Part shown: positions 42,382 to 63,519 of the stretch, in pieces
Position numbering within the stretch: position 1 is the first letter of the stretch
How the letters are laid out: each line of letters opens with the position of its first letter
Assembly (NCBI RefSeq): GCF_033954835.1
Contig: NZ_CP121471.1
Location: 3,838,501-3,902,500 of the forward strand
Direction of reading: 5' to 3'
DNA: 64,000 nucleotides
DNA from: Thiorhodovibrio frisius
Lineage (GTDB): Bacteria; Pseudomonadota; Gammaproteobacteria; Chromatiales; Chromatiaceae
Translations under genes and position numbers: made by a program
Notes under the pieces: generated by a model
Database searches by the model: none
What the model saw: the letters and a program-made list of their open reading frames with translations, nothing else
Told to the model about the DNA's origin: nothing

Positions 42382-43950
42382 TCAGTCCGGAATAAACCGC
42401 CCCAACTCGGGCACCGCCAAAGCCGCAAACTCACGCAACCGCCGATCGCCATCGGCCCAGTCTTCCCACGGCTGAATCACCGTTGTCAGCCGCACCAGCG
42501 CCCCATCGGTGCGATTTCGCGTCAGCGCATCCCAGAACAGGAACCACTTCACCGCATATTCATTCGTCAGCACCCGACCGCGCTGCTGGAACCAATAATA
42601 CACCAGCTGCTTATCCTCACCGCGCTGAATCTTTAGCCGGTTGACCCGCAACGGCTGCCCCGTCACGAACAAGCCATCCAGGCTGATCCGCTGCAAGTCC
42701 TCGATTCTCCAACCGCCGCCCGGGATGCACGAGCGCGGCGAATGGGCCGATTCCCCAGCCCCTTGAGAATCATAGAAGGCGGCGTAAAAATTCACCCGCC
42801 GATCACCGCCACCGATGAAATCCCCGATAAAATAATCGGTCAGATCCAGGCTCTTGAGGATGTTGTCCTGCAAGATCTCCGGAGTCCCCTCCCACTGGCC
42901 AATTTCCTCGGGAAACACCGTCAGCGATTCCCGCGCCAACGACTCCACCGGACGCGCCTGCAGAAAAGGCATGGTCGCAGCCGTCAGCGCCAACAGCGCC
43001 ACGGCCGCCCAGAAGGGTTTAGGCACCGAGCGCTCGGACGGCACAAAACCCGCCGGCAACGGCTCCGGCCAGTCCAGCGCTAGCGCCGCGCCAAAAGACC
43101 GACTCTCCCGGAAATGCCCGCTGAAGCGCACGAACAGCCACACCTCCGCCAACAACAGCGCCGTGCACGCCATAAAGATAATCCAGCCCTCAAAATCGTG
43201 CAGAAAGCCCTCGGCGGCGCCGATGCCAAAATACTCCACCAGCAGCCCCGTCACCCCGATTCGGAAACTGTTCATCGCCACCGTAATAGGCACGGTTGAA
43301 GCAAAGACGATCACCCGCTGCCACCAAGGCGCCCTGAAGAAGTAAGCAATCAAAAACCCAAAGCTCATCAATGGGAACAGATAGCGCAGGCCGCTGCACG
43401 CATCCACCACCTGCAACTGATAACTGCCCAGGTCGATCACATTGCCCTCAAGGAACACCGAGATGCCGAACAGCCGGATAAACCAAACGCCGATCTCGGA
43501 GGACAGCAACTGCAAGCCCAGCGACATCTGGTTATGCAAAAACGGCGGAAAGGGGATCATGAACACCAGGTAGATCAGCGGCACCCAGAGGATGCGCATC
43601 GCCCCTAGCCCAGTAAACGCCCACACCAGCCCGGTTAGCAGCAGAATCAGTGAGACATGCACCACCAGGTAAATGGTGCTCAGCTGGCCGATCAGCAGCA
43701 ACAAGAGCGCCACGATAACCAGGCCCAGGCCGTTCCAAGAGCCAGAAAAGCGCAGCTGTGCCAGCGTTGGCCATTGTTGCCAAACCAGCATAAGGCTGAC
43801 CAGGGGGATGAAATAGCCGTGGCTGTATTCTTCGCGGGAGCTCCAGTCGCGCAGCAGTTCGGCGATGCCTGGCCAGTAGAGGATCGCGATTGCCAGCAGG
43901 GCAGCCCCGAGGGCAATCGCAAAATGTGGTAAAAAGCGCGCGTTCTTCAT
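42382..43950 (-). CDS. Exosortase with fused EpsI domain
   Basis: A membrane cysteine protease-transpeptidase of the exosortase family, which cleaves CTERM sorting signals of exported proteins and couples them to EPS production. 522 aa: about nine transmembrane helices (10-290), catalytic C185 (VDACSGLRY), R230 (NSFRIG) and H251 (GFLHDFEGW), then a periplasmic EpsI domain (from about 330) whose sequence continues to RFIPD. GAGGA precedes the ATG. The closest described groups by memory are XrtA and XrtD types; I cannot separate them here. No protein with a PEP-CTERM-like tail was seen in the window. It is the 3' end of the EPS locus. Confidence 0.92.
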   Translation of the reverse strand: MKNARFLPHFAIALGAALLAIAILYWPGIAELLRDWSSREEYSHGYFIPLVSLMLVWQQWPTLAQLRFSGSWNGLGLVIVALLLLLIGQLSTIYLVVHVSLILLLTGLVWAFTGLGAMRILWVPLIYLVFMIPFPPFLHNQMSLGLQLLSSEIGVWFIRLFGISVFLEGNVIDLGSYQLQVVDACSGLRYLFPLMSFGFLIAYFFRAPWWQRVIVFASTVPITVAMNSFRIGVTGLLVEYFGIGAAEGFLHDFEGWIIFMACTALLLAEVWLFVRFSGHFRESRSFGAALALDWPEPLPAGFVPSERSVPKPFWAAVALLALTAATMPFLQARPVESLARESLTVFPEEIGQWEGTPEILQDNILKSLDLTDYFIGDFIGGGDRRVNFYAAFYDSQGAGESAHSPRSCIPGGGWRIEDLQRISLDGLFVTGQPLRVNRLKIQRGEDKQLVYYWFQQRGRVLTNEYAVKWFLFWDALTRNRTDGALVRLTTVIQPWEDWADGDRRLREFAALAVPELGRFIPD

Positions 43951-44008
43951 GCTTGGTCCTCTAACGTATGATCAGGATTCAATCGAAACGCGGATGACGA
44001 CTCAGCCA

Positions 44009-45226
44009 TTAGGTCGGCGCCTTGGTCTCGAAAACACAATCATAGGACGCCAGGAGTTTTGGGGCTTCATAGTCCCATGCGAGTTCGTTTTCGATGCGCG
44101 CCATGCCAAAGGCCCCCATCCGCTCCCGCGCATGCGGATCATCCAGCAGTTGGCGGATTTTTAATGCAAAATCCTCGATATCATTCGGTTTCGCATACCA
44201 AGAGGCATCCAGTGCCGAACGTCGCCCCTCGGTCAGATCGTACTGAACTATCGGTTTGCCAAGCGCCATATACTCCATGATTTTATTCATGGTCGACTTG
44301 TCATTCATCGCGTTGGCTATATCCGGATTCACGCAGATATCCGCTGTGTTCAAGGCTTCCAGCAATGTTTTGTCGGGCACCCGCCCCGTGAACGTCACAA
44401 AGGAACCAACGTCAAGCTCCCCCGCCATGGCCTTGAGCGAATCCAATTCAGTCCCGCCGCCTACAATCACAAAATGCACATCCTCCCGGCCGAGATCCGC
44501 CACCAAATGCCGCACCGCGCGCAACAGATGATCAATGCCCTCCTGTTTGCCGATGACACCCACATAGCCCACCAAATAACGCCGCCCATTCTTCCAAGAC
44601 GGCACGGGTGGCAACCGCTTCAGCCGTGACACATCCGGCCCGCTGCGCACCACGAAGACCCGCTCTGGATTCATGCCGCCGCGCGAAATGGCGATCTCTC
44701 GATAGGATTCGTTGGTCGCGATCGAGACATCGGCGGTGCGAAAAGTCCAGCGCTCCAACAATAGCATCAGACGATAAAAAACGTCACGCCGGTTAAACTT
44801 CGCTTCGTACAACTCCGGGTTGATATCGTGATGATCGAACAGAAACCGCTTGCCGAAAAGCTTAAAGAACCCGCCAATCAGAAAAATGGTATCCGGCGGA
44901 TTGCAGGCATGGATCACATCAAAGCCGTGACGAAAAAGCACCTTGAGACTGAGATAAAATTCCCAAAAGAGCGCGCTCCCATACTCCAGCGCATACCCTA
45001 GCGCCCCATCGGCCTCGAGCGGCAGCGCATGGCGATAAATCCACACCCCATCAATCCGCTCCTCGCGTTGCTCATAACCCTCGCCAATCGGACAAATAAT
45101 GGCAACCTGATAGCCCGCGCGCTGCAGGGTGGTGGCCTCTTGCCAAACACGCCGATCAAAAGGCGATGGCAGATTCTCAACGATCATCAAAACGCGCCGC
45201 TGACGCTGCTTCGGTTCCTCGCGCAT
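44009..45226 (-). CDS. GT4-type glycosyltransferase
   Basis: A 405-aa GT-B glycosyltransferase. N-terminal VLMIVENLPSPFDRRVWQEA is typical of EPS-locus GT4 enzymes; the donor half has GYVGVIGKQEG, and the E-x7-E-like NKIMEYMALGKP. An ATG at 45226 with GGAG 7 nt upstream is better than the one at 45244. In the EPS operon between a nucleotide-sugar dehydrogenase and the exosortase. Confidence 0.91.
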   Translation of the reverse strand: MREEPKQRQRRVLMIVENLPSPFDRRVWQEATTLQRAGYQVAIICPIGEGYEQREERIDGVWIYRHALPLEADGALGYALEYGSALFWEFYLSLKVLFRHGFDVIHACNPPDTIFLIGGFFKLFGKRFLFDHHDINPELYEAKFNRRDVFYRLMLLLERWTFRTADVSIATNESYREIAISRGGMNPERVFVVRSGPDVSRLKRLPPVPSWKNGRRYLVGYVGVIGKQEGIDHLLRAVRHLVADLGREDVHFVIVGGGTELDSLKAMAGELDVGSFVTFTGRVPDKTLLEALNTADICVNPDIANAMNDKSTMNKIMEYMALGKPIVQYDLTEGRRSALDASWYAKPNDIEDFALKIRQLLDDPHARERMGAFGMARIENELAWDYEAPKLLASYDCVFETKAPT

Positions 45227-45264
45227 CTTACGTCTCCGAGACAACGCCCATAAGGCGCCAGCTT

Positions 45265-46578
45265 TTACCAGCAGATACCGTCATAGGAGGCCACATCGCT
45301 GCGGCCATCGCTGATCCGCACCAGATCCACAACCACCTGATCCGGCTTGAGTTGACCGAGCACCCCTTGAAACTCCGCCGAGCCATTTCCGACAATCAAC
45401 ACCTCGCCATGCGCAAGAATGTCGGAGAGGTCCTTCACCATCAAGCGCGCAATATGCGGAATGCGATTAAGGATATAGTCACGATTCGCGCCAACCAAAC
45501 TCGCGAGATTCACATTCTTGTCGTAGATTTTCAGCTCATAGCCCTTGCCCAGCAAGCGCTCGATCAGCTCCACCACCGGACTCTCGCGCAGATCATCGGT
45601 CCCCGCCTTAAAGGAAAAACCCAGGATGCCAACCTTCTTACGGCCCTTGGCCACCACCATGTCAAACGCTTTCTTCACCTGCAGCGCATTGCTCGGCAGA
45701 ATCGCATCCAGGATGGGCACCGGAATATCCATGCTACGTGCCTTGTAGGTCAAGGCGCGCACATCCTTCGGCAAACAGGAGCCGCCGAAGGCAAACCCCG
45801 GCTTCATGTAATAGGGAGAAAGATTCAGCTTAGTATCCTGACAAAAAATGTCCATCAACCGATGCCCATCAATCTCCAACGCCTTGCAGATGTTGCCAAT
45901 CTCGTTGGCGAAACCCACCTTCAGGGCGTGCCAGACATTGTCCGTATATTTCACCATCTCCGCCGTTTCAATATCGGTGCGAATCAAAGGCCCCGGGAGA
46001 TGCCCGTAGAGTTCCGCCAGGATATCGCCGCTGCGCGTATCCAGCTCGCCGATCACCGTTTTTGGCGGCTGATAAAAATCCTTTACAGCGGTGCCTTCGC
46101 GAAGAAACTCCGGATTGTGGCAAATACCAAAGTCCTCACCCGCGCGTTTGCCGGAATATTCCTCTAGCGTCGGAATCACAATCTGGCGTATGGTCCCAGG
46201 CAAAATGGTGCTGCGAATCACCACGGCATGAAAACCATCCTTCCGGCGCAAGGACTCGCCAATCTGCTCACACACCGTCCGCACATGCGAGAGATCCAAG
46301 CTGCCGTTCAGTTGGCTCGGTGTCCCGACACAGACAATTGAGACATCTGTCTGCTCGATGGCTGACGCGAAATCCATGGTCGCGCTAAGCTGCCCCTTCT
46401 CAACCGATTCCTGAATCAGTGTTCCGATCTCCGCCTCAATGACCGGCGTTTGACCCGCGTTAATCAGCTCGACCTTGGTCGCGGAAGGATCGACGCCAAT
46501 CACTCGATGCCCATCGTGTGCCAGGCAGCCCGCCGACACAGCGCCGACATAGCCGAGTCCAAAAATATCAATATTCAT
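45265..46578 (-). CDS. UDP-glucose/GDP-mannose 6-dehydrogenase, AlgD-like
   Basis: Makes a sugar-uronic acid nucleotide by two NAD-dependent oxidations. N-terminal Rossmann start MNIDIFGLGYVGAV, catalytic Cys at C268 in FGGSCLPKD, and a C-terminal SAM-fold binding part with GFSFKAGTDDLRESP. The segments around MKPGFAFGG and ARSMDIPVPILD look closer to GDP-mannose dehydrogenase (AlgD) than to UDP-glucose dehydrogenase, and C268 matches the AlgD numbering. So GDP-mannuronate is the more likely product, by inference. Confidence 0.92.
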   Translation of the reverse strand: MNIDIFGLGYVGAVSAGCLAHDGHRVIGVDPSATKVELINAGQTPVIEAEIGTLIQESVEKGQLSATMDFASAIEQTDVSIVCVGTPSQLNGSLDLSHVRTVCEQIGESLRRKDGFHAVVIRSTILPGTIRQIVIPTLEEYSGKRAGEDFGICHNPEFLREGTAVKDFYQPPKTVIGELDTRSGDILAELYGHLPGPLIRTDIETAEMVKYTDNVWHALKVGFANEIGNICKALEIDGHRLMDIFCQDTKLNLSPYYMKPGFAFGGSCLPKDVRALTYKARSMDIPVPILDAILPSNALQVKKAFDMVVAKGRKKVGILGFSFKAGTDDLRESPVVELIERLLGKGYELKIYDKNVNLASLVGANRDYILNRIPHIARLMVKDLSDILAHGEVLIVGNGSAEFQGVLGQLKPDQVVVDLVRISDGRSDVASYDGICW

Positions 46579-46623
46579 GAATGACTTCCCAAGGATAGTC
46601 GAAGCAAGAGAGCCGAATGCAAA

Positions 46624-48498
46624 TTAAGTGTCTAGCAAATTGATCGCAGAAGTCACGCCTTGTTGGGGAATGCGACCAACCCAGGAAATGCGCGTGGCCG
46701 GCAGTTTTATACCAAAACGAGGGGAAATCCAGCCTCCACCCTCGCCGAGCTCTCCGCCCTGCGCTAAACAGAGATCGCCAGGCGTATCAAAGGCCACTGT
46801 GGCAATGTCACGCCCGGCGCGCCTGATCAGGATCGCGTCCCCAACGCTGCGCGCCTCGCAGTCCATCGCCAGTTGAAACACGATTTCCGCCCGCCGCGCT
46901 GGCGCGATCAGGCCGCCCTCCAGTCGATCATGAATGGCAAAGCCCTGATCGGTCGCGGACAGGGTGCGGCGGTGGAGAACGCCAAAGGGCTTGCGATAGC
47001 CGTCATGGGCAGCAGTGATCGACCAATCGGCTCCGTCGCGTGCGGACTCCAGCCTCGCGCGCGCCTTGTGCGACCAGTTGAACGGCCCGCTGATGCGACT
47101 CTGATCCACACCGTCGACATTAACCGTGTTGTGCGCACGGGTACCGCGAAACCAATCCCGCCAGGCGCCACCGGAATGATACAAATAGGTGCCCGGATCA
47201 ACGAACAGCGGCTTGCCATCGAGCGTGACAAGAATCGCCAGCGCATCAGCATGGCCATGGGCGGCGATGGTCAAATAACCCAGGGGCCCGTGATCGAAGA
47301 GCAACGCCAGCCTATGCCCGGCGCGTTGCTCGCGAACAACGGTGTAGCCGCCCTCGGTAAAGGTATGAAGACCTGTTGGCGACGTAGCCGCTGGCAGGGC
47401 GAAGCGCCGGCAAACGCTGACCGGATAAGACGGCTCGGCGGCATCCAGCCACAGCACCCGACCTTCATCGTCATCACCGATTGCCGGTACTTGGCCCTCG
47501 GCATCCTGCAGCCAGGCGATGAACTCGGCGAAAGCGGCCAGGCGCGCATCGACGACGGCCGGCAGGGGGCGCCCAGCAGCGCTCGCCGACGCTTGCGCGC
47601 ACCACAGCAACTCGGCACTGAAGGCGCCATAGGTGGGCGACTGTTCCGCCGGTACGCCATCGGCATGGAACTGACGCTCGGCCTCGCGTGCCAATACCCG
47701 GCGATGGCGTGCTTCCAGAGTGGCCGCCTGCGGCCACTCTGGCAGCGCGAGGGCGATCAGAAATTCCCCGGCTGCCTCGGCGATGCGATGATTATTCGCC
47801 GAGGAAAAACGCGACGGATAGCGCCCCAGCCACAGCGCATGGGCGCGCAGCAGCGCGCGCAGCCGCGCCACCGTCGGCTCGGAGAGATGCGACCCGCACA
47901 AGCTCGCCGTGATCAGCAGCGTAATGGCGCGCAGCGCCAGCTCAATGCCAGAATTCCAGCCCAGCCCGCGAAAGGGCGGATTGGCCTCATACCAACTCGC
48001 AATGGCCTGTTCGATGGCCGCCAGGGCCTGGGGATCTCCGGTGCGCGCCACCTGCGCCGCCAGGGTTTGGAGAAACTGGAGCCGGTTGATTTCCCAGACG
48101 TATTTGATGTCGCCCAAGCGGCGCTCATGGCGATAGGGAATATCGAAGCAATACGCATCGGCCCCGGGCCAGGAGGCACCGGTCACCGGATCCAGTCGCC
48201 ACAGCTCCGCAGGGAACAGGCATCCGGGCGCTCGTGGCGGCCAGGTTTGACCGAGGGCGGTGAATTCACCCGCCAGCAGCGCGGTGGTTCTGGCGTTTAA
48301 ATCGTGCTCCGGCACAGCGCGCGCTAGGCTGTCCCAGGGGCCGGGCAGCATAGGCACGGGGCCAGGATTGGCATAGCGCTCCCAGCCCTCCAGGGTGCCC
48401 CGTGCGGTCGATTTCCTAACCTTTTCCACCACCCGATGGGCGATCTCGGGTGGACTCATGGCGCGCAGGCGATGGAGTTTCCAAAAGAAATTGTTCAT
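46624..48498 (-). CDS. Heparinase II/III family protein
   Basis: A 624-aa polysaccharide-lyase-like protein. N-terminal alpha/alpha toroid with SANNHRIAEAAGEFLIAL and RHVLAREAERQFHADGVPAEQSPTYG-like core, then the antiparallel beta-sandwich with TEGGYTVVREQ, the His motif AAHGHADAL, DPGTYLYHSGG and RGTRAHNTVNVDG. Members lyse uronic-acid polymers; next to an AlgD-like enzyme it may trim or release the polymer made here. No clear signal peptide. The ATG lies 45 bp from the dehydrogenase on the 5' side of the operon order. Confidence 0.9.
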   Translation of the reverse strand: MNNFFWKLHRLRAMSPPEIAHRVVEKVRKSTARGTLEGWERYANPGPVPMLPGPWDSLARAVPEHDLNARTTALLAGEFTALGQTWPPRAPGCLFPAELWRLDPVTGASWPGADAYCFDIPYRHERRLGDIKYVWEINRLQFLQTLAAQVARTGDPQALAAIEQAIASWYEANPPFRGLGWNSGIELALRAITLLITASLCGSHLSEPTVARLRALLRAHALWLGRYPSRFSSANNHRIAEAAGEFLIALALPEWPQAATLEARHRRVLAREAERQFHADGVPAEQSPTYGAFSAELLWCAQASASAAGRPLPAVVDARLAAFAEFIAWLQDAEGQVPAIGDDDEGRVLWLDAAEPSYPVSVCRRFALPAATSPTGLHTFTEGGYTVVREQRAGHRLALLFDHGPLGYLTIAAHGHADALAILVTLDGKPLFVDPGTYLYHSGGAWRDWFRGTRAHNTVNVDGVDQSRISGPFNWSHKARARLESARDGADWSITAAHDGYRKPFGVLHRRTLSATDQGFAIHDRLEGGLIAPARRAEIVFQLAMDCEARSVGDAILIRRAGRDIATVAFDTPGDLCLAQGGELGEGGGWISPRFGIKLPATRISWVGRIPQQGVTSAINLLDT

Positions 48499-48618
48499 TT
48501 TGTATGCTCTATGAAAGGCGCCAACCCATCAAGACGGGAAAGGCCCCTTCAGTGATCGCGGCGCAGTTTGGCCAGCCAGGCTTCGATGGTGGCTGCACCA
48601 AGCCCAATGCCGTCAACT

Positions 48619-49859
48619 TTAGACGACCCGCTTGTACGGGATATGGTATCCCGCCTTGCGCTGCCCGGGAGTGTGGCGCGGGAAACTCCGCCCCGGGCGC
48701 ACTTGCTCAGTGGTTTGTGACAAGCGTTGGATGATCCGTGTGATCAGCTCCGCGCAGCCGCTTGGTGAGGCGTAGAGGAGATCAAACAACTGATCGCTCA
48801 GGTGGGACAAGGCGCTGGTCATGCGCACCTTGTAGTCAAACCGGCGTGTCTCGTACAGGCGCTTTGCCACCAACTGGGCCACCGCGCGCAGCATGGCCGC
48901 CAGATTCATCGCCAGCACCTTCGCATGCATGTCCTGGCGCACCGCCAGCGACGTGCGCCCGGAGAGATTCTCCATCTCCGCGCGCACCTTGGTGACCTTA
49001 TAGCCCCCTTCTTCCACTCCCCAACGCCGGTGGTAGAGGTCTTTGAACAACCGTGCCGGCAGCCGCGTCTCCTCCAGTACCGATCGGGTTCGGCCCCCTG
49101 GTCGCGGCACGCGCGCGCTTGTTGCGCGGAGGGATGCAAGGTGATCAGCGCACTGGGCGCATCACTGTGCCAAAACGGCTCGGCTTCCTTGAACTGTTTG
49201 CGCGCCAAGCGCATCACGCAGTCGACCCCCAAGGTCCGGTGCAAAGCAAACAGCCAAAGCGCCGGATACCCGCGATCATAAATGACCAAATCCCCCGGCG
49301 CGGTCGCCTTGAGATGATCGACCGCCAGCTCAAGTTCACTGACACAGTAGGCCGCCACGGCGAAGTCCAGAACCATCTCCAGATCCAGGTCATAGAGCAG
49401 CGAACCGCGGGCCAGCACCGGTCCGCTAGACTGAGCCCCAAAAAACCGTTCAATGTCCTCGCCATCGGGCAGGCGAAAGGTCGTCCCATCCACCGCCCGC
49501 AAGCGGAACCCATGCCAGGTTGGGCGACCGAAACCAGAGAAAAACCCCGCCACGGCCTGGCGGTTGAGCGCCTCGAACACCGACGCGGCCAGCCCCTTGC
49601 GCGCCTTACTCACCGCCGAGCGCGTCGGCACCTCCGAGGCCACGGCTTCGCCCTCAATCGCGGCGAAAAAACTCGCCAGTTCGGTCTCGGTGCTCCGCGC
49701 GCGGGGTTTCATCAGGAAGGCCACCAAGCGTTCGAAGGGAAGATCGCGTTGGCGGGTGAAGGCGCCCGCTTTCAGGCGGTGCTCCGCGACAAAATCGGCG
49801 CTGGAAAGTGAACCATTAATCCCAGTGTACACATTTTGGAATACACTTTGTATGCGCAA
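48619..49859 (-). mobile_element. IS4-type transposase, frameshifted
   Basis: Two overlapping frames together encode one DDE transposase: the first (49859-48906) gives VDGTTF (first D) and YDRGYP (second D) and then falls out of frame; the second (49110-48619) gives LYHRRWGVEEGGYK with the catalytic E and runs to the natural C-terminus. The break at about 49095-49115 also seems to lack about a dozen residues, so it is a decayed gene and not a programmed shift. It sits inside the EPS operon between the lyase and a sulfotransferase. Terminal inverted repeats were not found. Confidence 0.88.
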
Positions 49860-49876
49860 CTTCAGCTGGCTTTAGC

Positions 49877-50071
49877 TCAATTTGTGTGTGGCGCTTCATT
49901 GGTTGTACTCCATTGGTTGAAAATAGGGAATCGAGGCGATAATTTTAGCAAAATCAGCGCGATGGCGCTTAAGTCAACGACATTGGCACCAAGCCCCCGG
50001 CGCCGATCCTCGGAATCAAACCGCTTGAGAATCGCTTCGGGATCGTTACGGATAGCCTCGTCGATGACCAT
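49877..50071 (-). CDS. Possible small ORF of 64 aa
   Basis: Starts 15 nt after the sulfotransferase stop with GGAGAG just before the ATG. Encodes MVIDEAIRNDPEAILKRFDSE followed by a hydrophobic stretch. The spacing is operon-like, but the sequence has no family resemblance I can name and lies next to an IS, so it may be a relic. Confidence 0.3.
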   Translation of the reverse strand: MVIDEAIRNDPEAILKRFDSEDRRRGLGANVVDLSAIALILLKLSPRFPIFNQWSTTNEAPHTN

Positions 50072-50086
50072 CTCTCCGTCTCGCGC

Positions 50087-50923
50087 CTACCTATAGCCCC
50101 AGGCCAAAAGCGTATCACTTAGATCAGATTCTATCTCTTCTATGACTCGAGGTGGTATTTCACTTTTCCAGGAATCAATCCTGCCTTTTCTGAATGTATG
50201 CTTACCTTCACCAAAAAGCTTATCTGCAACAGAATCAAAAGAATCTAGTGTTATGCCAATATGAGCACAAATATCAGAGATAGTTTTGATTTGATCACTA
50301 TCGTTACCACCACCTTTCGACCCAATTAGATCTTCAAACTTCACAAGCAACACATCCTCATGAAAAACCCAACCTTGAATTGCATTACAGCGAACACTCA
50401 TCGACTGGTAGTTTAAATTCAGACGATGGACCCCTTTCAATGCTGCTCTATACCTGTCTTCTTCAGCAATCGAAGTATAGTATTTATAGAGAATATGCCT
50501 CTCTCTACGCATGACGAATGGCACGAGAGACGCGATGACTGCCCTTGGATCTCTAATCACGACAATAGGCCTGATACCGTTATCCAGGCAAAGATTGAGA
50601 ATGTCATCAGTATAACCCAAATGACCAGTGCAATATGTGGTACCGGACATTGAAAGCAACCTGTTCTGGACAACCTTCCGTGACATTTCAACAGGAGAAT
50701 CTAGACCTACAAGGTAACCTTGCTGCAAGCGAGCACCCCAAAGGACTCTCCTAAGCTTAGCGGCTATAGATTTCTGCAATACCGCGCTCGAAGAAAGCGA
50801 AAATATCTTATTGGTTGTAGACTCGGTCACAGGAGAATAACCGATTATATCAAGACACTTCGCAACTAAATTCGTACCTGATTTCGGCAGAGAATTGATA
50901 AGAACCGGCATTGATTTGTTCAT
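50087..50923 (-). CDS. Sulfotransferase, EPS locus copy 1
   Basis: A 278-aa soluble sulfotransferase fold protein that moves sulfate from PAPS. The 5'-phosphosulfate loop is PKSGTNL near residue 14; the 3'-phosphate site is VIRDPRAV. Its ending TFRKGRIDSWKSEIPP is closely similar to the ending of the sulfotransferase at 61453-62259, so the two are paralogues. The gene is clearly more AT-rich than its neighbours, suggesting separate arrival. Confidence 0.87.
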   Translation of the reverse strand: MNKSMPVLINSLPKSGTNLVAKCLDIIGYSPVTESTTNKIFSLSSSAVLQKSIAAKLRRVLWGARLQQGYLVGLDSPVEMSRKVVQNRLLSMSGTTYCTGHLGYTDDILNLCLDNGIRPIVVIRDPRAVIASLVPFVMRRERHILYKYYTSIAEEDRYRAALKGVHRLNLNYQSMSVRCNAIQGWVFHEDVLLVKFEDLIGSKGGGNDSDQIKTISDICAHIGITLDSFDSVADKLFGEGKHTFRKGRIDSWKSEIPPRVIEEIESDLSDTLLAWGYR

Positions 50924-50942
50924 TATCTTGACACGAATTCCC

Positions 50943-52289: not shown

Positions 52290-52297
52290 AGTATTAA

Positions 52298-52879: not shown

Positions 52880-52881
52880 GG

Positions 52882-53339: not shown

Positions 53340-53664
53340 ACCTACTGATTTATTGACACTTTGGGTCGATCAGATTATCCAGGACATTATCGGCGCGCGG
53401 TCCTAGGTCGCGGACAAGCCAACGGCAGCAGAGAAAAGCGACGTCGTTTCCGTCATCATGCCTCATAATTCTGTGGATAGGCGGACGCGTGCTGCGGGCC
53501 GGCACGAGCCCCGCTCCGCTGGGCGTCGCGCCCACATTGTCCCCAAAAACCTGTTACAAGGTAGATACTATTATCTGCGGGGAGGTGATGCCGGGCGCAT
53601 CGGCTGTCAAGCTGGAGCCCATAGAAGACGTAGGAGACCCATGAGCGTTTCCTAACAAGAGCTC
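53340..53664. other. Gene-free gap beside IS remnants
   Basis: About 325 bases between the ISL3 remnant and the glycosidase gene. No supported reading frame, promoter or hairpin found. Composition switches from GC-rich to AT-rich at its right end. Confidence 0.5.
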
Positions 53665-55209: not shown

Positions 55210-55485
55210 TATATAATCTCCACTCTCAAATGTTAGCTCTTTCATACGTTTCACAACGGAAGCGCCCGCAAACACGCAGGTTATCAAATCGTACAACCCT
55301 TAAAATAGAGCCACTACAAATTAGTCACAATTGAAAATTTAGTCATAGAATTGGGGCGACTTCCTTGTACAAGGCACCTGGACGAGAGCCTGCCTCCTCC
55401 AGCCAAGTCTACGGCTAATGACAATACTGCGCTCAAGCAGTTCCCCCGTCAAGCTTCGGGGGCGAGGTCACTCCAACGCACCCGC

Positions 55486-55698
55486 TCAACAATGGGACTG
55501 TCGGCACTGGACTGTGAGCTTCCGTGACTTCAGACAATTATCGCTGAACGGCAACTCCAGATTGGCAAAAAAGAGATCGGCCTCACCCAGGGCTAATGCA
55601 AGTTCGGGCGCATAAAGACCGCCGCCCGCCTTAAGCTGTCGCCCCGGACTTTCCACAAGCATGACATCACCGCCGAAAACTAAGTTTAAGTCGCCCAT
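55486..55698 (-). pseudogene. Truncated CapA-type gene
   Basis: The first ~52 residues (LVFGGDVMLVE..., ending in FFANLELPFSD) match the N-terminus of CapA/PGA_cap metallophosphatase-like capsule proteins; the frame then leaves homology and stops after 70 residues (full length is usually over 350). The ATG overlaps the stop of the preceding gene by one base, so it was once a coupled member of the operon. Confidence 0.78.
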
Positions 55699-57107
55699 CA
55701 GCCAGCGGCCTCGACTTGCTGGATAAACAGTTTGGTCTTTCCGGAGCGTGTCACCGGGATATCAGTCACCACCTGGCCAATGAGCGCCAGGAACTTACCA
55801 TCCATGCGCTTGCGAATCTCGGTCACAAAGCCCGCCACAGCTTGCTCGCCACTGACCCCGTTTGCAGGCATAACATTGACATGCAGGCTTCCCGGCGCAT
55901 TCTGCACACACTGCAGCTTGTAAACCAGCCCCCAGGTACGGCCATGGATGCCTGCGAGCAGGTTATGGAAGGGCACGCGCTCGCCATTGGCAAGCAACAC
56001 AAATTCCTCGGCGCGGCCCATGATCTTTCTCAACATCAGAAAGTTACGCCCGCATTCACAACCGTGGGCCCCGCGCACGGCGAAATCCCGGGTTCGGTAG
56101 CGGATCAACGGCATGACGAGATTGTCAAACCCCGTGGCGATTATCTCGCCTTCCTCGCCCTCGGCGGCCGGGCTGCCATCCTCTCGAATCACTTCGATAT
56201 GTCCGTATTCTGGATGGATATGATATTCATCGCATAACCGGCAGTTACCGCCGAACACCAGGCGTTCCGTATGCCCGTAGTAATGGCATACAGGACAGCC
56301 GAGAAACTCCTGGATAGTACGGCGGTGATCCTCATAGATGTTTTCTGATTCCAGTATCACGCATTTCAGTCGGAACGGCTCAATCCGATGCTGGATCATC
56401 AACTGGACCAGTTTGAAAACCATAAAGGGATAACCCCGGATCGCCGCCGGCTTCAGTCTCCTGATCCGCTCGCAGGAGGCCACCACAGTCGCGTCGGACA
56501 GCCGGTAGGAGGACAGGATCAAGTTGCAGTCCACTGGATCGTAATACCAGGGACGGTCTCCATCGATCACCTCGCCTCGCAACACAACGACTCGATCACC
56601 CTTGCGGAAGCCGAAATCGCGGAAAAGGTCATGCAGAAAGGCGCGCTCCTTGGGCCGGGTTACATCCTTATGGTGGTAGAGTTCGAGCGGGACGCCGCTC
56701 GAACCACTAGTTGATGTGTACAACCGCTCGTCCTCCGACAGGTTGTCGGCCAGCATATCGGTCTGGTGATTCTTGATCTGTTCGCGGGTAAGGGGGGGGA
56801 ATTTTTGCAAATCAGCAAGCGACCGGAAATCGTCCGGGGAGACACCCGCAGCCCGGTATGTTTCGCGATAGAAAGACGCATGGCTATAGGCATGCTCCAG
56901 TAGCTGCTTCAGCTTGCGGAACTGGTATTCATCATGCTCCTCCCGATTCCAGCCACGGGCGCTAGCTGCAAGTCTGCGGTAAACATCGAAGTTCCTGCCA
57001 TAGCGAACCCGGTAAGGTAGCATGCCATAGCAGGCCCCGACCGTCTGCTTTACCCAGGGCGGCGACTTCTTGTACAACCCGAGAAACCTGTAAAGTCCGT
57101 CTTCCAC
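55698..57107 (-). CDS. CapK/PaaK-like adenylate-forming enzyme
   Basis: A 469-aa member of the phenylacetate-CoA ligase (PaaK) superfamily of the CapK type found in capsule loci. ATP loop TSTSGSSGVPL, GYPFMVFKLV, the motif GHTERLVFGGNC and a YRTRDFA loop are visible; the C-terminal small domain carries the conserved Lys in RSGKTKLF. GTG start overlapping the upstream stop (TAGTG). Substrate unknown; it may activate an acid used to decorate the polymer. Confidence 0.85.
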   Translation of the reverse strand: MEDGLYRFLGLYKKSPPWVKQTVGACYGMLPYRVRYGRNFDVYRRLAASARGWNREEHDEYQFRKLKQLLEHAYSHASFYRETYRAAGVSPDDFRSLADLQKFPPLTREQIKNHQTDMLADNLSEDERLYTSTSGSSGVPLELYHHKDVTRPKERAFLHDLFRDFGFRKGDRVVVLRGEVIDGDRPWYYDPVDCNLILSSYRLSDATVVASCERIRRLKPAAIRGYPFMVFKLVQLMIQHRIEPFRLKCVILESENIYEDHRRTIQEFLGCPVCHYYGHTERLVFGGNCRLCDEYHIHPEYGHIEVIREDGSPAAEGEEGEIIATGFDNLVMPLIRYRTRDFAVRGAHGCECGRNFLMLRKIMGRAEEFVLLANGERVPFHNLLAGIHGRTWGLVYKLQCVQNAPGSLHVNVMPANGVSGEQAVAGFVTEIRKRMDGKFLALIGQVVTDIPVTRSGKTKLFIQQVEAAG

Positions 57108-58294
57108 TAACGCCCCCCACCGATAAAGCTCTCTATCAGTCCGGAAATCTCATCGGCCCGGAAATACCAGGTATCCCCTCTGACCTTCTCGACCCTCTGG
57201 CGTTCTCGCTCCGGCGAATTGTTCGCCAGTTCCTGTTCCAACTTGTCGACAAATTCATCCGGCGTGGCCGCGATCGCAACCACATCGCCCATTGTATTAA
57301 CAACCTCGGGAATCGGCACCGAAACCACCGGCTTGCCCATGGCCAGGTACTCCTTAGCCTTGACCGGATTACAATATTGCATCCATTCGTTCATCACCCA
57401 GTTCATGATGCATACATCGAAATGCTTTCCGTAGGCAGGTATCTCCCCGAGTTCCTTCTTGCCCAGGAAGTGCATATTCGGATACTGCTCGAGCCGCGAA
57501 TAATCAGACACTACCTGACCGATCAGGACCACATTCCATTCCGGGTGCTTTTTAAGAATCGCTTCAAGAATATCCTTGTCATTCGACTCGGTAACGCTTC
57601 CGAAGTAGCCAATGACCGGTTTGCGGATATCGCGCATATCCTCAGGCAGCGGCAGTTCATCAGTAACAGCCGTGTGGAAAAGCTCGAAATTACTGCCATG
57701 TGGGACATAATAGCAACGAGGGTTATCGTTAATATAAGCCGCCTGAATCTCTTTTGACACGCAGACCAACAAGTCGGCGGTCGACACCATCATGCTATCC
57801 ATCGGGGAGATCAGGTTACTGCCAGCGATATCACGAAATTTATCGAACTTGTCGCACAGGTAATATACGATCACCCTGACCTTGCTCTTTAAGACAGGCA
57901 ACACCAGCGCCGCAGCCGGGGTTGAGGAGATCACCACGGGCTTCTTGCCTTTCCAGCCGATTGTTCTCATAGCAAAGCGGATCTGCCAAAGCAACAAGCG
58001 TTCATTAATATACTGTATCTGCTGATGACCAAATCCGGGTATGGTGATGGGCGTCAGCACCCAGATGTTGTCTTCCGCCTGCTTCAGAAACTTGGCATAA
58101 CTCTTGAACTTGTTTCTATACCTGCACCAGCTCCCGCTCTTGCCCGGTTTCGGCATCCGCAACGGCACGGAGTTCACGTAAAGCGCCTGATTACCACTGG
58201 CGACCATCTCCCGCAGCAACTGAATCCCCGATGATGGATTGTGATACCACCAGTCGCTCCCGCCGAAAAACAGTATATTTTTTCCCTGCATCAT
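57107..58294 (-). CDS. GT4-like glycosyltransferase, EPS locus
   Basis: A 395-aa GT-B glycosyltransferase: N-terminal ILFFGGSDWWYHNPSSG, middle CVSKEIQAAY and the donor-site half with GYFGSVTESND and CNPVKAKEYLAMGKPVV. Cys/Asn pattern fits the GT4 group that adds hexoses to lipid-linked EPS. Stop overlaps the next start by one base; the deacetylase stop lies 1 nt upstream of its start. Confidence 0.88.
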   Translation of the reverse strand: MMQGKNILFFGGSDWWYHNPSSGIQLLREMVASGNQALYVNSVPLRMPKPGKSGSWCRYRNKFKSYAKFLKQAEDNIWVLTPITIPGFGHQQIQYINERLLLWQIRFAMRTIGWKGKKPVVISSTPAAALVLPVLKSKVRVIVYYLCDKFDKFRDIAGSNLISPMDSMMVSTADLLVCVSKEIQAAYINDNPRCYYVPHGSNFELFHTAVTDELPLPEDMRDIRKPVIGYFGSVTESNDKDILEAILKKHPEWNVVLIGQVVSDYSRLEQYPNMHFLGKKELGEIPAYGKHFDVCIMNWVMNEWMQYCNPVKAKEYLAMGKPVVSVPIPEVVNTMGDVVAIAATPDEFVDKLEQELANNSPERERQRVEKVRGDTWYFRADEISGLIESFIGGGR

Positions 58295-58295
58295 G

Positions 58296-59084
58296 TCAGG
58301 TCAGCTCTTTGTATAGCCTTTCCAAGGTGGAAAACTCGCAGCCCTCGTCACGAAACATTCTGAGCGCATCGGCAATCAGCTGCATATGCTCGGGACGGCG
58401 GTGGTAACGGTGATGAACGGTCACGCCGATAACTGTCTGGCCGGTCGCACGGATCCTGTCCAGCCGCTCCTTCAGGTAATCAAGCGTCGGAAACTCGCAG
58501 TCGTCATCCGAGAAATAGCGCTTGATCAGGCTCATGCTCATGGAAATATCCATTAGGCCCGAGCCAGGTATGCGCTGCATGTGGTGGGACACCCGCTTAC
58601 CCAGCAGGTGGGTGCGGCGAAGCAGGTGGCCGACACCGTAGAGAATCTTGTTCTTAGCGTATACGTTGTGATAAGAGGAAAAGACCTTGTAACCGGTTTC
58701 ATCCATACAGCGGATGGTCGCCTGGTTATGTCCTCCGCGCGGACAGGTAAACGCGGCAAAAAAATCGTCCCCGAAGTTTTTGTCCATGAGTTCGCGGCCC
58801 GCGCGGACATCTTTTATCTGATCCTCGTAGGTGCGCCCACCGAACTCGCCCATACCAGGGACCTTGTCGACATGGTCGTAGCCATGGGTGATGATCGAGA
58901 TCTGATCGGGATGGTTCTGCTTCAGTTCGCGCAGCCAGCTCACGGTCTCCGCCACCACGTTGGCAGGCTCCACCGCCATGTCCGCACAGGCCCGGTTTTC
59001 GCAAACAATTCGCCAGAACTCTAGGAGTTCCGCATCCAGGTTGTTTACATCATCGTTTCTCAAAAAAATCTTCACAGCTGACAT
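58296..59084 (-). CDS. Polysaccharide deacetylase-like protein
   Basis: A 262-aa NodB-fold protein. Seen: FLRNDDVNNLD with the metal Asp pair, HGYDHVDKV (metal His), and a typical GYKVFSSYHN. The Pro-Arg in CPRGGHN also fits. The usual third metal ligand is altered, so deacetylation is likely but not certain. The start at 59084 is set by GGGAG 8 nt upstream; an ATG at 59090 is too close to it. It is placed 35 nt from a GT2 gene. Confidence 0.82.
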   Translation of the reverse strand: MSAVKIFLRNDDVNNLDAELLEFWRIVCENRACADMAVEPANVVAETVSWLRELKQNHPDQISIITHGYDHVDKVPGMGEFGGRTYEDQIKDVRAGRELMDKNFGDDFFAAFTCPRGGHNQATIRCMDETGYKVFSSYHNVYAKNKILYGVGHLLRRTHLLGKRVSHHMQRIPGSGLMDISMSMSLIKRYFSDDDCEFPTLDYLKERLDRIRATGQTVIGVTVHHRYHRRPEHMQLIADALRMFRDEGCEFSTLERLYKELT

Positions 59085-59119
59085 ATGCATGTCTCCCGAC
59101 GAGTCGCAGCTGGCAGGCC

Positions 59120-60001
59120 TTAGTGTTGCAGATGATATTGAATGTAACGTTTTAAGAAACCGCCCGCGGTCCTGGCCAAATCCAGCAACAGGTGCTGTGG
59201 GATCAAGAGTCTCGGACAATGCCTGAACGTCAAGCGCCACTTGATGATCAGATTGTTCGGCGAGCGCCTGGAAAACAGCGACCTGAAGAACTCGCCCAGC
59301 ACCGGCCGCGTGTGGCGGGTCCCGATCCCGGTAGCCTTGTAATCACTTAGCACCCGGCCATCGAAGTTCAGCAGCACCTCGTAACCCGCATTGGCGGCGC
59401 GCATGGAAAAATCCTCGTCCGCTGCATAATGCGGAAATGCATGGCGGTCGTAGACCCCGATATTCCGGAACACCGTTACCGGTATCAGCACTCCCTTACC
59501 GCACAGCTTCGGCACGGACGTTAGCCCGTGATGACGGTCTGTAACCGGCTCGCCGAACCTGTTGGCGTAACCTTTTTTCGCCGTGGTCCAGTTATGCACC
59601 GACTCGGCGGTCTCAATCCGCCCGGGATCATCCTTGAACACGACCATAGAACCGATCAGCGCCCTGGGCCGCGCATGGTGCGCCTCAATCATGCGGTCAA
59701 GGAATTCAGGACCAACCACGACATCGTTATTAAGGGTGAGCACCAAGTCTTCATCAGCCGCCAGGGGCAGGATATATTCCAGGCAGCGGTTGATGCCGCC
59801 AGTCCACCACAGCTGCCCGTCGCCTCGCAGTACCTTCACATCAGGATGATGTTCGGCCAAATACTCACCGGTGCCATCGGTAGACCCGTCATCGCAGATG
59901 ACAATCTCAAAATCCCGAAAAGCCGAGCGTTCCAGTGACTCGACGCATTCCCTGGTCTGCTCCAGTCGGTTGAATACAGGAATTGCGATAAATAGCTTCA
60001 T
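59120..60001 (-). CDS. GT2-type glycosyltransferase
   Basis: A 293-aa GT-A enzyme. N-terminal FIAIPVFNRLEQTRECVESL, the nucleotide site ICDDGSTDGT, the DxD-like LTLNNDVV, and later the acceptor ADEDFSMRAANAGYE (general base region). The ATG at 60001 begins MKLFIAIPVFN; the frame upstream is non-homologous. No membrane segments. Confidence 0.91.
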   Translation of the reverse strand: MKLFIAIPVFNRLEQTRECVESLERSAFRDFEIVICDDGSTDGTGEYLAEHHPDVKVLRGDGQLWWTGGINRCLEYILPLAADEDLVLTLNNDVVVGPEFLDRMIEAHHARPRALIGSMVVFKDDPGRIETAESVHNWTTAKKGYANRFGEPVTDRHHGLTSVPKLCGKGVLIPVTVFRNIGVYDRHAFPHYAADEDFSMRAANAGYEVLLNFDGRVLSDYKATGIGTRHTRPVLGEFFRSLFSRRSPNNLIIKWRLTFRHCPRLLIPQHLLLDLARTAGGFLKRYIQYHLQH

Positions 60002-60032
60002 GGTCTTGCCCGGGAGAGAATTCTTGTGAAAT

Positions 60033-61448
60033 TTACCCACCAACATCGCTGGTTGCATTGGGTTTTCGCTGTTGTTCAGCAGCCGTCGCCAGACCAATGA
60101 GGTAGACACCGGCCAGCATCCAGAATACGAAAGACGTCCGGAAATATGTGAAAGTGGCATTCATCAGATCGATAACGAACAGCATGATCATCGTCAGCAA
60201 AAAGCGGTGCTTGTCTGCATCGCCCACAGCATTACGGAGCCTCTTGCTAACCCCCCCCCTGAACAGCACTCCCCGGATTAGCAGGGCCAGCCCCGCACCT
60301 ATTGCGCCCTCCTTCGCCAGCAGGCGCATGACAAAATTATGCGGGGACCACTGCATGCCTTCATTGTCTTCCTGAACCGCCGCCACGATATCGATGGGAC
60401 GAGCCACCCCTACTCCGAGCACCGGGTTCTTCAGGAAGGTCTCGAAGGATATCTTCCACATGATTTCGCGCCGCGAAACATTAAGATCTTCGGTATTGAA
60501 GGTATCGGAGTAGCGGGTCACCACCTGCCCCAGATAATCCGGCTTGACGAAACTCACGACGGTTATCGACACCGTTGTCAGCATCAGCATGCCGATGGAC
60601 CCAAGCACCACCCGGCTGACCGCGCCACGCCGCAATAGGATAACCAGCGCGTAGAACAATACCAACAGCAGGGCCACGAAGGCCGAGCGGTACTGGGTCA
60701 TTACCATGCCCGCGATCATATAGGCGATCACCAACATATTCATTGCATTGAACCGGAAACCGACCAGATGATAGATGATCACCAGCATGTAGAGAATGTT
60801 GGCACCGATAAAGAAAGTGCGCTCGGTGCCCGAACTGGTATACCAGACTGCGCCGCTTGCCAGCATATAAACCTGGAACAGAGGCAGAACCAGCACCAGG
60901 ATGTAGGCAAAGCGGGCGAATTTCGCCAGCCGAGCACGATCGAAATACAAAAAGATATAGAACATGTAGATGCATACCAGGTATTTCACGCCCTCGCGCA
61001 CCACGGTATCGATCGGCACGCCTGTAAAAGCACACCACAGCATCTGACCTAACTGATAAAGGGAAAAAACCGCCACCAATTTGCCGAGCGTGTTATTCAG
61101 GGCGCGCCGGAAGGCAATCGGCCTGGTCAACATCCCCAGCCCGATCAACAGGGCAAACATGGCAAAGAACAGATCGTTCGGTGTTACATTTACCGAACCT
61201 ACTGAGAGCTTGTATGCCTCGACCTTGTCTCCGATGTGCGGCAAATACATCGTCCATTGATAAAAAAAGAACCCCCAAAGCAGTGAAGCAGGAAACAATA
61301 GAAAGACAATGCCTACCAGCATTCCAGCCACGATCATGGCTGGCTTGATCACAACACCTATGCCTGCCAGCACCACGGCCAGCCCCACTAGAACTCCTCC
61401 GATTATCGGCGGCACATCGATATTTCTCCTGTTCAGCAGAAACTTACT
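60033..61448 (-). CDS. O-antigen/EPS polymerase (Wzy/ligase type)
   Basis: A 471-aa polytopic membrane protein with about 11 helices. The segment NPVLGVGVARPID...WSPHNFVMRLLAKEGAIG in the late periplasmic loop carries the H-N motif used by O-antigen ligases and polymerases. Start set by GAGGAAT 5 nt before the ATG at 61448. Lies in the flippase/polymerase-dependent EPS locus, so polymerisation is likely; ligase activity cannot be excluded. Confidence 0.87.
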   Translation of the reverse strand, partial: SKFLLNRRNIDVPPIIGGVLVGLAVVLAGIGVVIKPAMIVAGMLVGIVFLLFPASLLWGFFFYQWTMYLPHIGDKVEAYKLSVGSVNVTPNDLFFAMFALLIGLGMLTRPIAFRRALNNTLGKLVAVFSLYQLGQMLWCAFTGVPIDTVVREGVKYLVCIYMFYIFLYFDRARLAKFARFAYILVLVLPLFQVYMLASGAVWYTSSGTERTFFIGANILYMLVIIYHLVGFRFNAMNMLVIAYMIAGMVMTQYRSAFVALLLVLFYALVILLRRGAVSRVVLGSIGMLMLTTVSITVVSFVKPDYLGQVVTRYSDTFNTEDLNVSRREIMWKISFETFLKNPVLGVGVARPIDIVAAVQEDNEGMQWSPHNFVMRLLAKEGAIGAGLALLIRGVLFRGGVSKRLRNAVGDADKHRFLLTMIMLFVIDLMNATFTYFRTSFVFWMLAGVYLIGLATAAEQQRKPNATSDVGG

Positions 61449-61452
61449 CATG

Positions 61453-62259
61453 CTATTCCTCGTATCCCATTTCCGGCAGTAATGGGCCAAGGCTGTCATT
61501 CAGCATCGCCAGGTGCTGCGGCGGCAGTTCGCTGCGCCAGCTGTCGATCCGCCCCTTGCGAAAGGTGCTGGTCGAACCGAAGATGCTCGCCTGGACGTGC
61601 GCGGCGAGTGCCGCGTCCTCACCGTGCCCCAGAAACCCCAGCGTCTCCTTGATCGCAATGCGCTGCCGGTCCGCGCAGCCGCCGCCCTTTTCTCCGACCA
61701 GGTCCTCGAACCGCACCATCAGCGCACTGCCGGACTCTTTCCAGTCAAGGTACTCGCGGTAGCGATCCGCCAGCGAGCGCAGTGTATACGGCCCAAGCTG
61801 GCCACCGAGGATGGACATCTTCAGGCGTTCATTGTCATCCCCCAGCGCCATGAAAAATGGGTGAAAGAAATGACGCGGAGTTCGCTTAATGTAATCTAGG
61901 TGCGACACCGCAATCGAACGCGGATCCCGCAGCATGCAGACCACAGAGACATCACTGGCCGCCAGCAGCCGGCGGATCGGCTGGGAATAAAGGCAGTGCG
62001 CGCCGAACACAGCGCCGTCCGGCAACTTGTCGAGCCTGCGGCGTAGCCAGTTGACGCCGATCTCGACCGGCACCTCGCTCCCGATGGTGATCCGCTCCCG
62101 CGCAAAACCACCGCGCGTCACACGTCGCAGTAGCTCGAATCTTCCACGAATGAGATCGGCACCGATCCAAAACGGGTTTTCCTCGAACCCAGCCAACGAA
62201 ATGAGCCTAAATAGCAGATGCGTTCCACCTTTGGGTATCGAGTTCGCCATTACCTTCAT
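61453..62259 (-). CDS. Sulfotransferase, EPS locus copy 2
   Basis: A 268-aa paralogue of the protein at 50087-50923. PAPS 5' loop PKGGTHL at residue 9, 3' loop LRDPRSIAVS, and the shared ending TFRKGRIDSWRSELPP. GC-rich like its neighbours, in contrast with copy 1. Tightly spaced (4 nt) before the polymerase gene. Confidence 0.9.
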   Translation of the reverse strand: MKVMANSIPKGGTHLLFRLISLAGFEENPFWIGADLIRGRFELLRRVTRGGFARERITIGSEVPVEIGVNWLRRRLDKLPDGAVFGAHCLYSQPIRRLLAASDVSVVCMLRDPRSIAVSHLDYIKRTPRHFFHPFFMALGDDNERLKMSILGGQLGPYTLRSLADRYREYLDWKESGSALMVRFEDLVGEKGGGCADRQRIAIKETLGFLGHGEDAALAAHVQASIFGSTSTFRKGRIDSWRSELPPQHLAMLNDSLGPLLPEMGYEE

Positions 62260-62289
62260 GCAACTCTCGTCCTGTTTCGTCCCAATGTC

Positions 62290-63261
62290 TCACCGGTGCG
62301 AATGCACACGAAACCAGCGTTTTGCGGTTCGCAGCTTGTAGGCGACAATCGCTGGCTCGAACAGGCAGTACACGATTCCGTACGTTCGCAGCAGTACATC
62401 CCAGCCCAGATTCTTCATCTGTTGCGGAATCGCATCCAGCTCCGCCATGATGCTATCGTGGTCATAGCCCATGGTGCTCAACCGCTCCGTACCGAGCCAG
62501 CGCAGGTAAGAACGTGCCCACTGCTTGCGGACCGGATTGCAGAATCCTTTTTTCCATTTACTCAGAGGCTCATCGCTCAGCGCAAAATATTGCCGAGTAC
62601 CGGTCGGATCGCCCATGCGGCCACTAAGCTTCACTTCCGGAAAGCTGTCAACCATTTCCTCTTCGAACGGCAGCTCAAGATATTCCATGATCGACCTAAA
62701 GGTCGCCTCCGGCTCGGAAACCATATCCTCGTAGCGTATCGAGAGGGCGCGGTTGGCATGAAGCTCATAGCAATCGACCAAATTCTCCAGACCGGTATAG
62801 AGATCTATCTTGTAGGCGTGCAGCTTCCAACGCCCGCCGCCCCAGGTCTCCATAATTGACGCGGCCACCGCCAACGGGTGACGCCACAGGAAAATGAACT
62901 TTCCGTCCGCAAACATCTCCACGATCTCCTCGGCCACCAGATGGTAGCGGGGCGTCTTGTCCAGGAAGTAGATCGCCTCCTTCCCCGCCGCCCGGCCATA
63001 GAGCCGACGAACAAACCCGGCCAACTCGACGCGATAGGCCGCTTCACCGCCCGGCAAAATTTCGCAAAAATCCTGGACTGCCTCGACTGTCCGGCCATGC
63101 CAGTATTCGGAAAACTGCCCTCGCTCCCTTAGCGTGTAGAGAAAGGGCAGCAGTAGCCACGGCTCGGACGCCGACGCCACCGCCGACGAACGCGTCAATA
63201 TGCGCTGCGCCAGCGTCGAGCCCGATCTCGGTAGCGAGAATATGAAAACCGGTTTCGTCAC
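62290..63261 (-). CDS. Sulfotransferase of another family, EPS locus copy 3
   Basis: A 323-aa protein of the Sulfotransfer_3-type: LPRSGSTLAQRIL gives the 5' loop, LWRHPLAVAAS the 3' phosphate site, DKTPRYH a conserved middle motif. A GGGAGG 6 nt before a GTG at 63261 sets the start; the frame continues upstream to 63345. It is the first gene of the minus-strand EPS locus. Confidence 0.88.
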   Translation of the reverse strand: MTKPVFIFSLPRSGSTLAQRILTRSSAVASASEPWLLLPFLYTLRERGQFSEYWHGRTVEAVQDFCEILPGGEAAYRVELAGFVRRLYGRAAGKEAIYFLDKTPRYHLVAEEIVEMFADGKFIFLWRHPLAVAASIMETWGGGRWKLHAYKIDLYTGLENLVDCYELHANRALSIRYEDMVSEPEATFRSIMEYLELPFEEEMVDSFPEVKLSGRMGDPTGTRQYFALSDEPLSKWKKGFCNPVRKQWARSYLRWLGTERLSTMGYDHDSIMAELDAIPQQMKNLGWDVLLRTYGIVYCLFEPAIVAYKLRTAKRWFRVHSHR

Positions 63262-63519
63262 ATCAGACCTCCCAAAATCGACCGGAATGAGGCCGCTATT
63301 TTGGATACTTGGACCCCAAATCACCGGGGGTTCCTCGTGCACCACTTAAAGCAAATCAGCTGCTTATGCGGTGCAATCTATCAACCAACTGCTCAACTTT
63401 CTGAATTATCTAATAAACTTAACAAGATAGAGTATTTTTAGAGACTCGACCTCGGAGGTCTGTACAAAAATACCTATTCACCTTCGTCCAGCCTGAAGCC
63501 GTCATCGTGCGCATACGAT
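63262..63519 (-). promoter_or_regulatory. AT-rich region upstream of the EPS locus
   Basis: About 260 bases, clearly AT-rich (for example the segment near 63395-63440), between the first EPS gene and a recombinase relic. By position it should hold the EPS promoter. GATAAT-like boxes occur but no well-spaced -35 was found, so no precise promoter is claimed. Confidence 0.35.

Follow-up and report, generated by a model that had tools for sequence, protein, structure and literature searches.

A candidate locus for a sulfated exopolysaccharide beside an XrtD exosortase in Thiorhodovibrio frisius

Introduction

The linkage between exosortases and exopolysaccharide (EPS) genes has been published since 2006 and is well known; 90% of EpsH homologues are reported near EPS genes (PMC1569441). 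Sulfotransferases in an EPS cluster have been published since 2021: according to the main text of PMC8205485, two sulfotransferases in the Wzx/Wzy cluster for synechan lead to a sulfated EPS with 2 sulfates per 8 sugars, and one of the two sulfotransferase mutants altered bloom formation and EPS amount little. Sulfated EPS is not new in itself in the Gammaproteobacteria, since that of Alteromonas infernus is named in PMC4189415, and producers are described as limited in PMC13125312. In the literature searched, largely outside subscription journals, we found no paper joining exosortase EPS loci with sulfotransferases. Here we analyzed a stretch of 64,000 nucleotides from Thiorhodovibrio frisius (contig NZ_CP121471.1, positions 3,838,501 to 3,902,500; hereafter the window) that carries what is probably an exosortase EPS locus making a sulfated polymer.

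With the PEP-CTERM/exosortase (EpsH) EPS loci (PMC1569441), of the XrtA and XrtD types, the locus has in common an exosortase with EpsI, the tetratricopeptide repeat protein PrsT, an XrtA-like ATPase, a tyrosine kinase, Wzz, a priming transferase and a CTERM-like protein. The window adds an AlgD-like enzyme and three sulfotransferases, as well as a heparinase-type lyase and a secreted glycosidase that is rare; the main text of that paper contains no words starting with sulfo, heparin or lyase. With the synechan xss cluster of Synechocystis it shares a Wzx/Wzy EPS cluster with sulfotransferases (two in xss); the families searched in that study were PF00685, PF03567 and PF13469 (PMC8205485). The xss cluster has the cyanobacterial XssQ/R/S regulators, and the word exosortase is absent from the main text of that paper, whereas the window adds the AlgD-like enzyme, the lyase and the glycosidase. 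Alginate biosynthesis likewise uses a GDP-mannose 6-dehydrogenase (AlgD), but the copy in the window belongs to a Wzx/Wzy locus that also has WcaJ.

Results

The original prediction, made from the sequence alone, had placed an exosortase-associated sulfated EPS locus on one minus-strand gene run. All the named gene classes are present in a minus-strand run at 42382-63345 of the window. Searches of the open reading frames (ORFs) against Pfam and NCBIfam bore out most assignments, more weakly for the deacetylase and with no model over its cut-off for the CapK/PaaK-like enzyme; the glycosidase, without a Pfam match, is weakly assigned. A split transposase inside the run, low-GC patches and a continuation of about 18 kb beyond the window had not been predicted. 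The features are as follows (GT, glycosyltransferase; ST, sulfotransferase; PAPS, 3'-phosphoadenosine 5'-phosphosulfate; L096 and R. marinum, XrtD loci described below).

42382..43950, minus: XrtD exosortase fused to an EpsI (DUF3485) domain; TIGR04152 572.8 bits, Cys-Arg-His triad
44009..45244, minus: GT4 glycosyltransferase (GT4a); PF00534 87 bits, 70% identity to the R. marinum copy beside XrtD
45265..46578, minus: AlgD-like GDP-mannose 6-dehydrogenase; TIGR03026 408.6 bits, 1mfz 566 bits, R. marinum 85%
46624..48498, minus: heparinase II/III-type polysaccharide lyase; PF07940 168.8 bits
48619..49859, minus: broken DDE transposase in two frames, an insertion remnant; PF01609 (DDE_Tnp_1) 26.2 and 23.2 bits, cut-off 23
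50087..50923, minus: sulfotransferase ST1; PF00685 32.1 bits, PAPS motifs, 39% homologue in L096
50943..52322, minus: Wzx flippase; PF01943 47.1 bits
53665..55209, minus: secreted glycosidase, perhaps of distant clan GH-A (GH51/GH79-like); weakly assigned, signal peptide judged by eye
55698..57107, minus: CapK/PaaK-like adenylating enzyme (AMP-ligase type); PF00501 20.4 bits and NF045666 149.8 bits (cut-off 300), both under cut-off
57107..58294, minus: GT4 glycosyltransferase (GT4b); PF13692 36.5 bits
58296..59240, minus: polysaccharide deacetylase-like protein (weak); PF01522 24.5 bits, cut-off 23.1
59120..60160, minus: GT2 glycosyltransferase; PF00535 79.2 bits
60033..61499, minus: Wzy-like polymerase; PF04932 (Wzy_C) 54.7 bits
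61453..62259, minus: sulfotransferase ST2; PF00685 32.1 bits, FRKGRIDSW as in ST1, 28% identity to ST1
62290..63345, minus: sulfotransferase ST3; PF13469 110.1 bits, 44.7% homologue in L096

The locus is cut by the window edge. Beyond it we found, in order, an IS110 element (between ST3 and WcaJ), the priming transferase WcaJ (519.4 bits), PrsT (326.6 bits, on the opposite strand), a TIGR03790 protein, a VPIPA-tailed protein, the XrtA-like ATPase, the tyrosine kinase and Wzz. A group II intron reverse transcriptase (segment L002, 19200-20000, into L003, 1-474) follows Wzz, and after it comes Wza (80.2 bits). Measured from XrtD (contig position 3880888) to Wza (3920832), the whole set of genes covers about 40 kb. 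By gene content, the flippase, polymerase, priming transferase, Wzz with its tyrosine kinase (BY-kinase) and Wza thus occur together, as in a Wzx/Wzy-dependent EPS locus. This was the assembly route originally proposed and is still the best reading, and the parts absent from the window (WcaJ, Wzz, the tyrosine kinase and Wza) were located next door. The Wzy-like protein may be a ligase instead, since Pfam names the PF04932 family O-antigen ligase.

The AlgD-like dehydrogenase was left open between AlgD and other dehydrogenases by NCBIfam alone, and the comparison with the Protein Data Bank (PDB) decided it. The protein matched the GDP-mannose 6-dehydrogenase 1mfz with 566 bits over residues 1-437, compared with 227 bits for the next solved relative. 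Over its full length it is therefore closer to AlgD than to the UDP-glucose dehydrogenases, and we rejected the latter identity.

The three sulfotransferases carry 5'-PSB-like motifs (PKSGT, PKGGT, PRSGS) and the 3'-PB-like motif R.P....S, which we take to bind PAPS. ST1 has PKSGT, RDPR....S and FRKG.....W, and FRKGRIDSW is common to ST1 and ST2. Sulfotransferases with PAPS motifs thus lie inside a Wzx/Wzy cluster, as in sulfated EPS clusters of the synechan type. The closest solved relatives of ST3 are the CurM sulfotransferase (4gbm, E 4.8e-14) and protein-tyrosine sulfotransferases, and its score on the NoeE model (52 bits) is under the cut-off of that model. An APS kinase, for PAPS supply, is present in the genome (212 bits), as it is in 11 of 14 control genomes.

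Sulfotransferase genes were also seen elsewhere in this genome. At contig positions 5086001-5106000 (L109), four matches lie within 10 kb together with an HlyD-like protein, and Wzx and Wzy were not seen among the 8 proteins tested there. Three more occur at about 101-113 kb, within 96001-116000, with a Wza-like gene at 81386; a second polysaccharide locus in this region is possible. Four PF00685 sulfotransferases with similar scores (152-162 bits, ORFs of 301-315 aa) are found at 3368236, 3659762, 3562441 and 2174525, and perhaps represent a repeated or mobile gene.

The exosortase was assigned to XrtD by TIGR04152 (572.8 bits; cut-off, 400), and its PF09721 domain (258.7 bits), followed by the EpsI domain, is the single PF09721 match in the whole 5.42-Mb, single-contig genome. 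The Cys, Arg and His of the membrane-domain triad were invariant throughout an alignment of 72 sequences, from 71 of the 73 XrtD loci plus the window. The closest relative returned was that of Rhabdochromatium marinum (90%), which points to a purple sulfur bacterium as the probable host. XrtD would be expected to act on CTERM proteins, and a role in protein sorting is more likely than one in polymer building. An exosortase that builds the polymer was rejected, as methanolan production was unaffected by the epsH disruption in Methylobacillus cited in PMC1569441; polymer assembly linked to exosortase sorting, as originally proposed, was overstated. One VPIPA-tailed protein is encoded inside the EPS locus, and two more lie at contig positions 3933814 and 3934707, about 13 kb past Wza. 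A fourth tail, of VPIP type, is at 1212614; the other three are 30 to 54 kb from XrtD (tails read partly by eye).

Two ORFs adjoin XrtD. The short ORF at 41018-41332 (minus strand), just downstream, matches positions 404-486 of the XrtD model, at the EpsI end (92.4 bits, contig 3879524-3879772), and is apparently a duplicated or left-over EpsI tail. A 631-aa protein at 39067-40962 (plus strand) is convergent with XrtD; judged by eye, its N-terminal stretch is AMMECR1-like and its C-terminal part helical and toroid-like. It matched nothing in Pfam or NCBIfam, gave only a chance match in the PDB and had no homologue in the XrtD loci searched, and for these reasons we kept it out of the system.

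Homologues of the heparinase-type lyase were found upstream of XrtD in 6 of the 73 XrtD loci. The secreted glycosidase had no Pfam match, no phmmer match in the PDB and only PDB profile matches at E 0.13-2.1, so that a family-level assignment to GH51 or GH79 was not reached by sequence. Its structure model (predicted local distance difference test score, pLDDT, 45.3) had GH51 enzymes and heparanase as best Foldseek matches at a template modeling (TM) score of about 0.27, and these fold matches only hint at clan GH-A. Among 369 genomes of the class searched, a relative was found in the own genome alone, so its homologue in a second sulfotransferase-bearing XrtD locus (L096) is telling. Between the two proteins GNE and TEWG are invariant, motifs that we presume to be catalytic.

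We then compared the locus with those of relatives. In R. marinum (L087-L089) both ends are alike, at 70-90% identity. The XrtD side retains XrtD (90%), GT4a (70%) and the AlgD-like enzyme (85%), and the other end retains WcaJ (72%), PrsT (74-85%), the TIGR03790 protein (75%), the VPIPA-tailed protein (77%, over a short stretch), the ATPase (76%), the kinase (85%) and Wzz (83%). Identity is low for the lyase (34%), Wzx (24%) and the CapK-like enzyme (29%), and the R. marinum locus gave no match to ST1-ST3, the glycosidase, GT4b, GT2, the deacetylase or Wzy. Its replaced core contains a PF03567 sulfotransferase (72.8 bits; GC content, 0.34), other glycosyltransferases and a secreted protein of beta-helix look (by eye), together with an insertion sequence. 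The replaced core in this relative is directly established, and the middle of the locus appears to be a replaceable cassette. The XrtD locus of a gammaproteobacterial metagenome-assembled genome (MAG; L096, the same place as L017) encodes homologues of ST1 (39%), ST3 (44.7%), the glycosidase (27%), GT2 (29%) and Wzx (31%), and a third sulfotransferase (65.8 bits) adjoins its Wzx.

To place these loci in context, we surveyed 50 XrtD genomes, namely 49 reached via the 73 XrtD loci and the own genome. Of the 73 loci, 50 were taken forward, less L081; the remaining 23 were the outlier L086 and 22 loci on contigs shorter than 19 kb. The contigs of many surveyed genomes are short. Matches under cut-off were dropped, 13 for sulfotransferases (some genes were retained via another family) and 18 of 69 for XrtD, as were 6 partial matches at the end of the priming-transferase list. 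PF13469 matches are a lower bound, and one L096 sulfotransferase (13019-13834) is absent from the tables; the counts therefore lean low.

A sulfotransferase lay within 40 kb of XrtD in at least 14 of 51 XrtD loci, the nearest always within 16 kb, compared with about 3.8 loci expected from sulfotransferase density. Among priming-transferase loci away from XrtD, at least 4 of 76 had one (Fisher p 0.0006, or 0.001 without the own genome), although these p values overstate independence, as Methylophaga accounts for 6 of the 14 positives. Sulfotransferases are present in at least 32 of the 50 XrtD genomes. The 14 positives are the own genome, Rhabdochromatium, Thiohalocapsa, Thiodiazotropha, two gammaproteobacterial MAGs, six Methylophaga, one Cycloclasticus and one Yoonia, the last with a weak, partial match (27.6 bits). 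A priming transferase was found within 60 kb in 24 XrtD loci; 8 of these have sulfotransferases, and all 12 lie between the priming transferase and XrtD (among the matches listed, as for the loci without sulfotransferase below). This co-location is a direct observation. The combination had been called uncommon, and we rejected a unique combination given the at least 14 loci that pair the two, but the pairing seems undescribed in the literature searched.

Discussion

The gene content, gene order and motifs were established directly. We infer the chemistry, which molecule accepts the sulfate, in what order the steps run, and how the sorted proteins are tied to XrtD and the matrix. We consider it likely, though well short of certain, that the 40-kb locus directs a Wzx/Wzy-dependent, sulfated, mannuronate-bearing EPS, with XrtD sorting VPIPA-tailed proteins alongside. 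WcaJ would put the first sugar on undecaprenyl phosphate, and GT2, GT4a and GT4b would lengthen the repeat, one of them using GDP-mannuronate from the AlgD-like enzyme. The lipid-linked repeat would be sulfated in the cytoplasm by two or three sulfotransferases that depend on PAPS. Since PAPS is cytosolic, sulfation should precede Wzx. The repeat would be flipped by Wzx and polymerized by Wzy, with chain length set by Wzz and the tyrosine kinase and export by Wza. Trimming or release of the chain is the most likely role of the lyase and the secreted glycosidase, and the VPIPA-tailed proteins would be processed by XrtD and probably join the same matrix.

Several points weigh against this explanation. 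On the XrtA-system models, the ATPase, the tyrosine kinase and Wzz all score under cut-off, although Wzz passes that of Pfam. All four VPIP/VPIPA tails score too low for the cut-off of TIGR03370 (best E 0.002), and with the lax threshold that picked them up, 7 of 14 control genomes had matches too. ST1 and ST2 each reach only 32 bits on PF00685, and phmmer gave only chance matches for ST1, with no solved relative by sequence. The transposase remnant and the low-GC patch could mark a decaying cassette. Lipids, proteins and small molecules are also substrates of sulfotransferases, and the genome holds many others (at least 17 PF13469, 13 PF00685 and 2 PF03567 matches). No sulfotransferase was found within 40 kb, in the sequence covered, in 37 of 51 XrtD loci, and sulfation is therefore not a general XrtD trait.

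The last two points, together with the resemblance of ST3 to CurM and protein-tyrosine sulfotransferases, would suit an ordinary non-sulfated EPS locus of the XrtD type, in which the sulfotransferases ride in the cassette and act on something other than the EPS, be it a glycolipid, a protein or a small molecule. We think this unlikely, as Wzx, Wzy and the three sulfotransferases share a single gene run, different sulfotransferase families occupy two otherwise similar frames, and all 12 in the two-marker loci fall inside the interval from priming transferase to XrtD. A special form of the sulfated, mannuronate-bearing EPS, which we hold to be less likely still, would be a glycosaminoglycan-like sulfated polyuronide on which the deacetylase, the lyase and a heparanase-like glycosidase act as one set. 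Such a polymer is favored by a single run that encodes the three sulfotransferases, the AlgD-like enzyme, the deacetylase-like protein, the heparinase-type lyase and the GH51/GH79-like glycosidase, but the deacetylase match is weak (24.5 bits), the glycosidase model is poor (pLDDT 45.3, TM about 0.27) and the proteins scanned included no recognizable C5-epimerase. A degenerate locus making no polymer, broken by insertion sequences and foreign low-GC genes, is the least probable alternative: the split transposase (two overlapping ORFs), IS110 and the reverse transcriptase lie within the locus, and ST1, Wzx and the glycosidase have a GC content of 0.42-0.45 (0.61 in window positions 1-42000), but the transposase remnant is placed between genes, the biosynthetic ORFs are uninterrupted and XrtD, the three sulfotransferases and the glycosidase, whose motifs were checked, have them intact.

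The value of the sulfated EPS reading lies in recurrence and in the switch of sulfotransferase family between two similar frames, rather than in one locus. As a tentative proposal, which we regard as doubtful at present, the XrtD loci of marine and sulfur-oxidizing Proteobacteria may be widespread and so far undescribed as a source of EPS that is sulfated and carries uronic acid (glycosaminoglycan-like). Sulfation would then be selected while cassettes swap, with unrelated sulfotransferase families replacing each other between priming transferase and exosortase. If so, sulfated EPS would be widespread in Proteobacteria with XrtD as a recognizable marker, new carbohydrate sulfotransferases with matching lyases would be at hand, and the role of sorted CTERM proteins in such a matrix could be tested.

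Other features of the window

Rfam and tRNA scans of the window gave no matches. A Fic/DOC protein with a DUF4172 N terminus is encoded at 37730-38869 on the plus strand.

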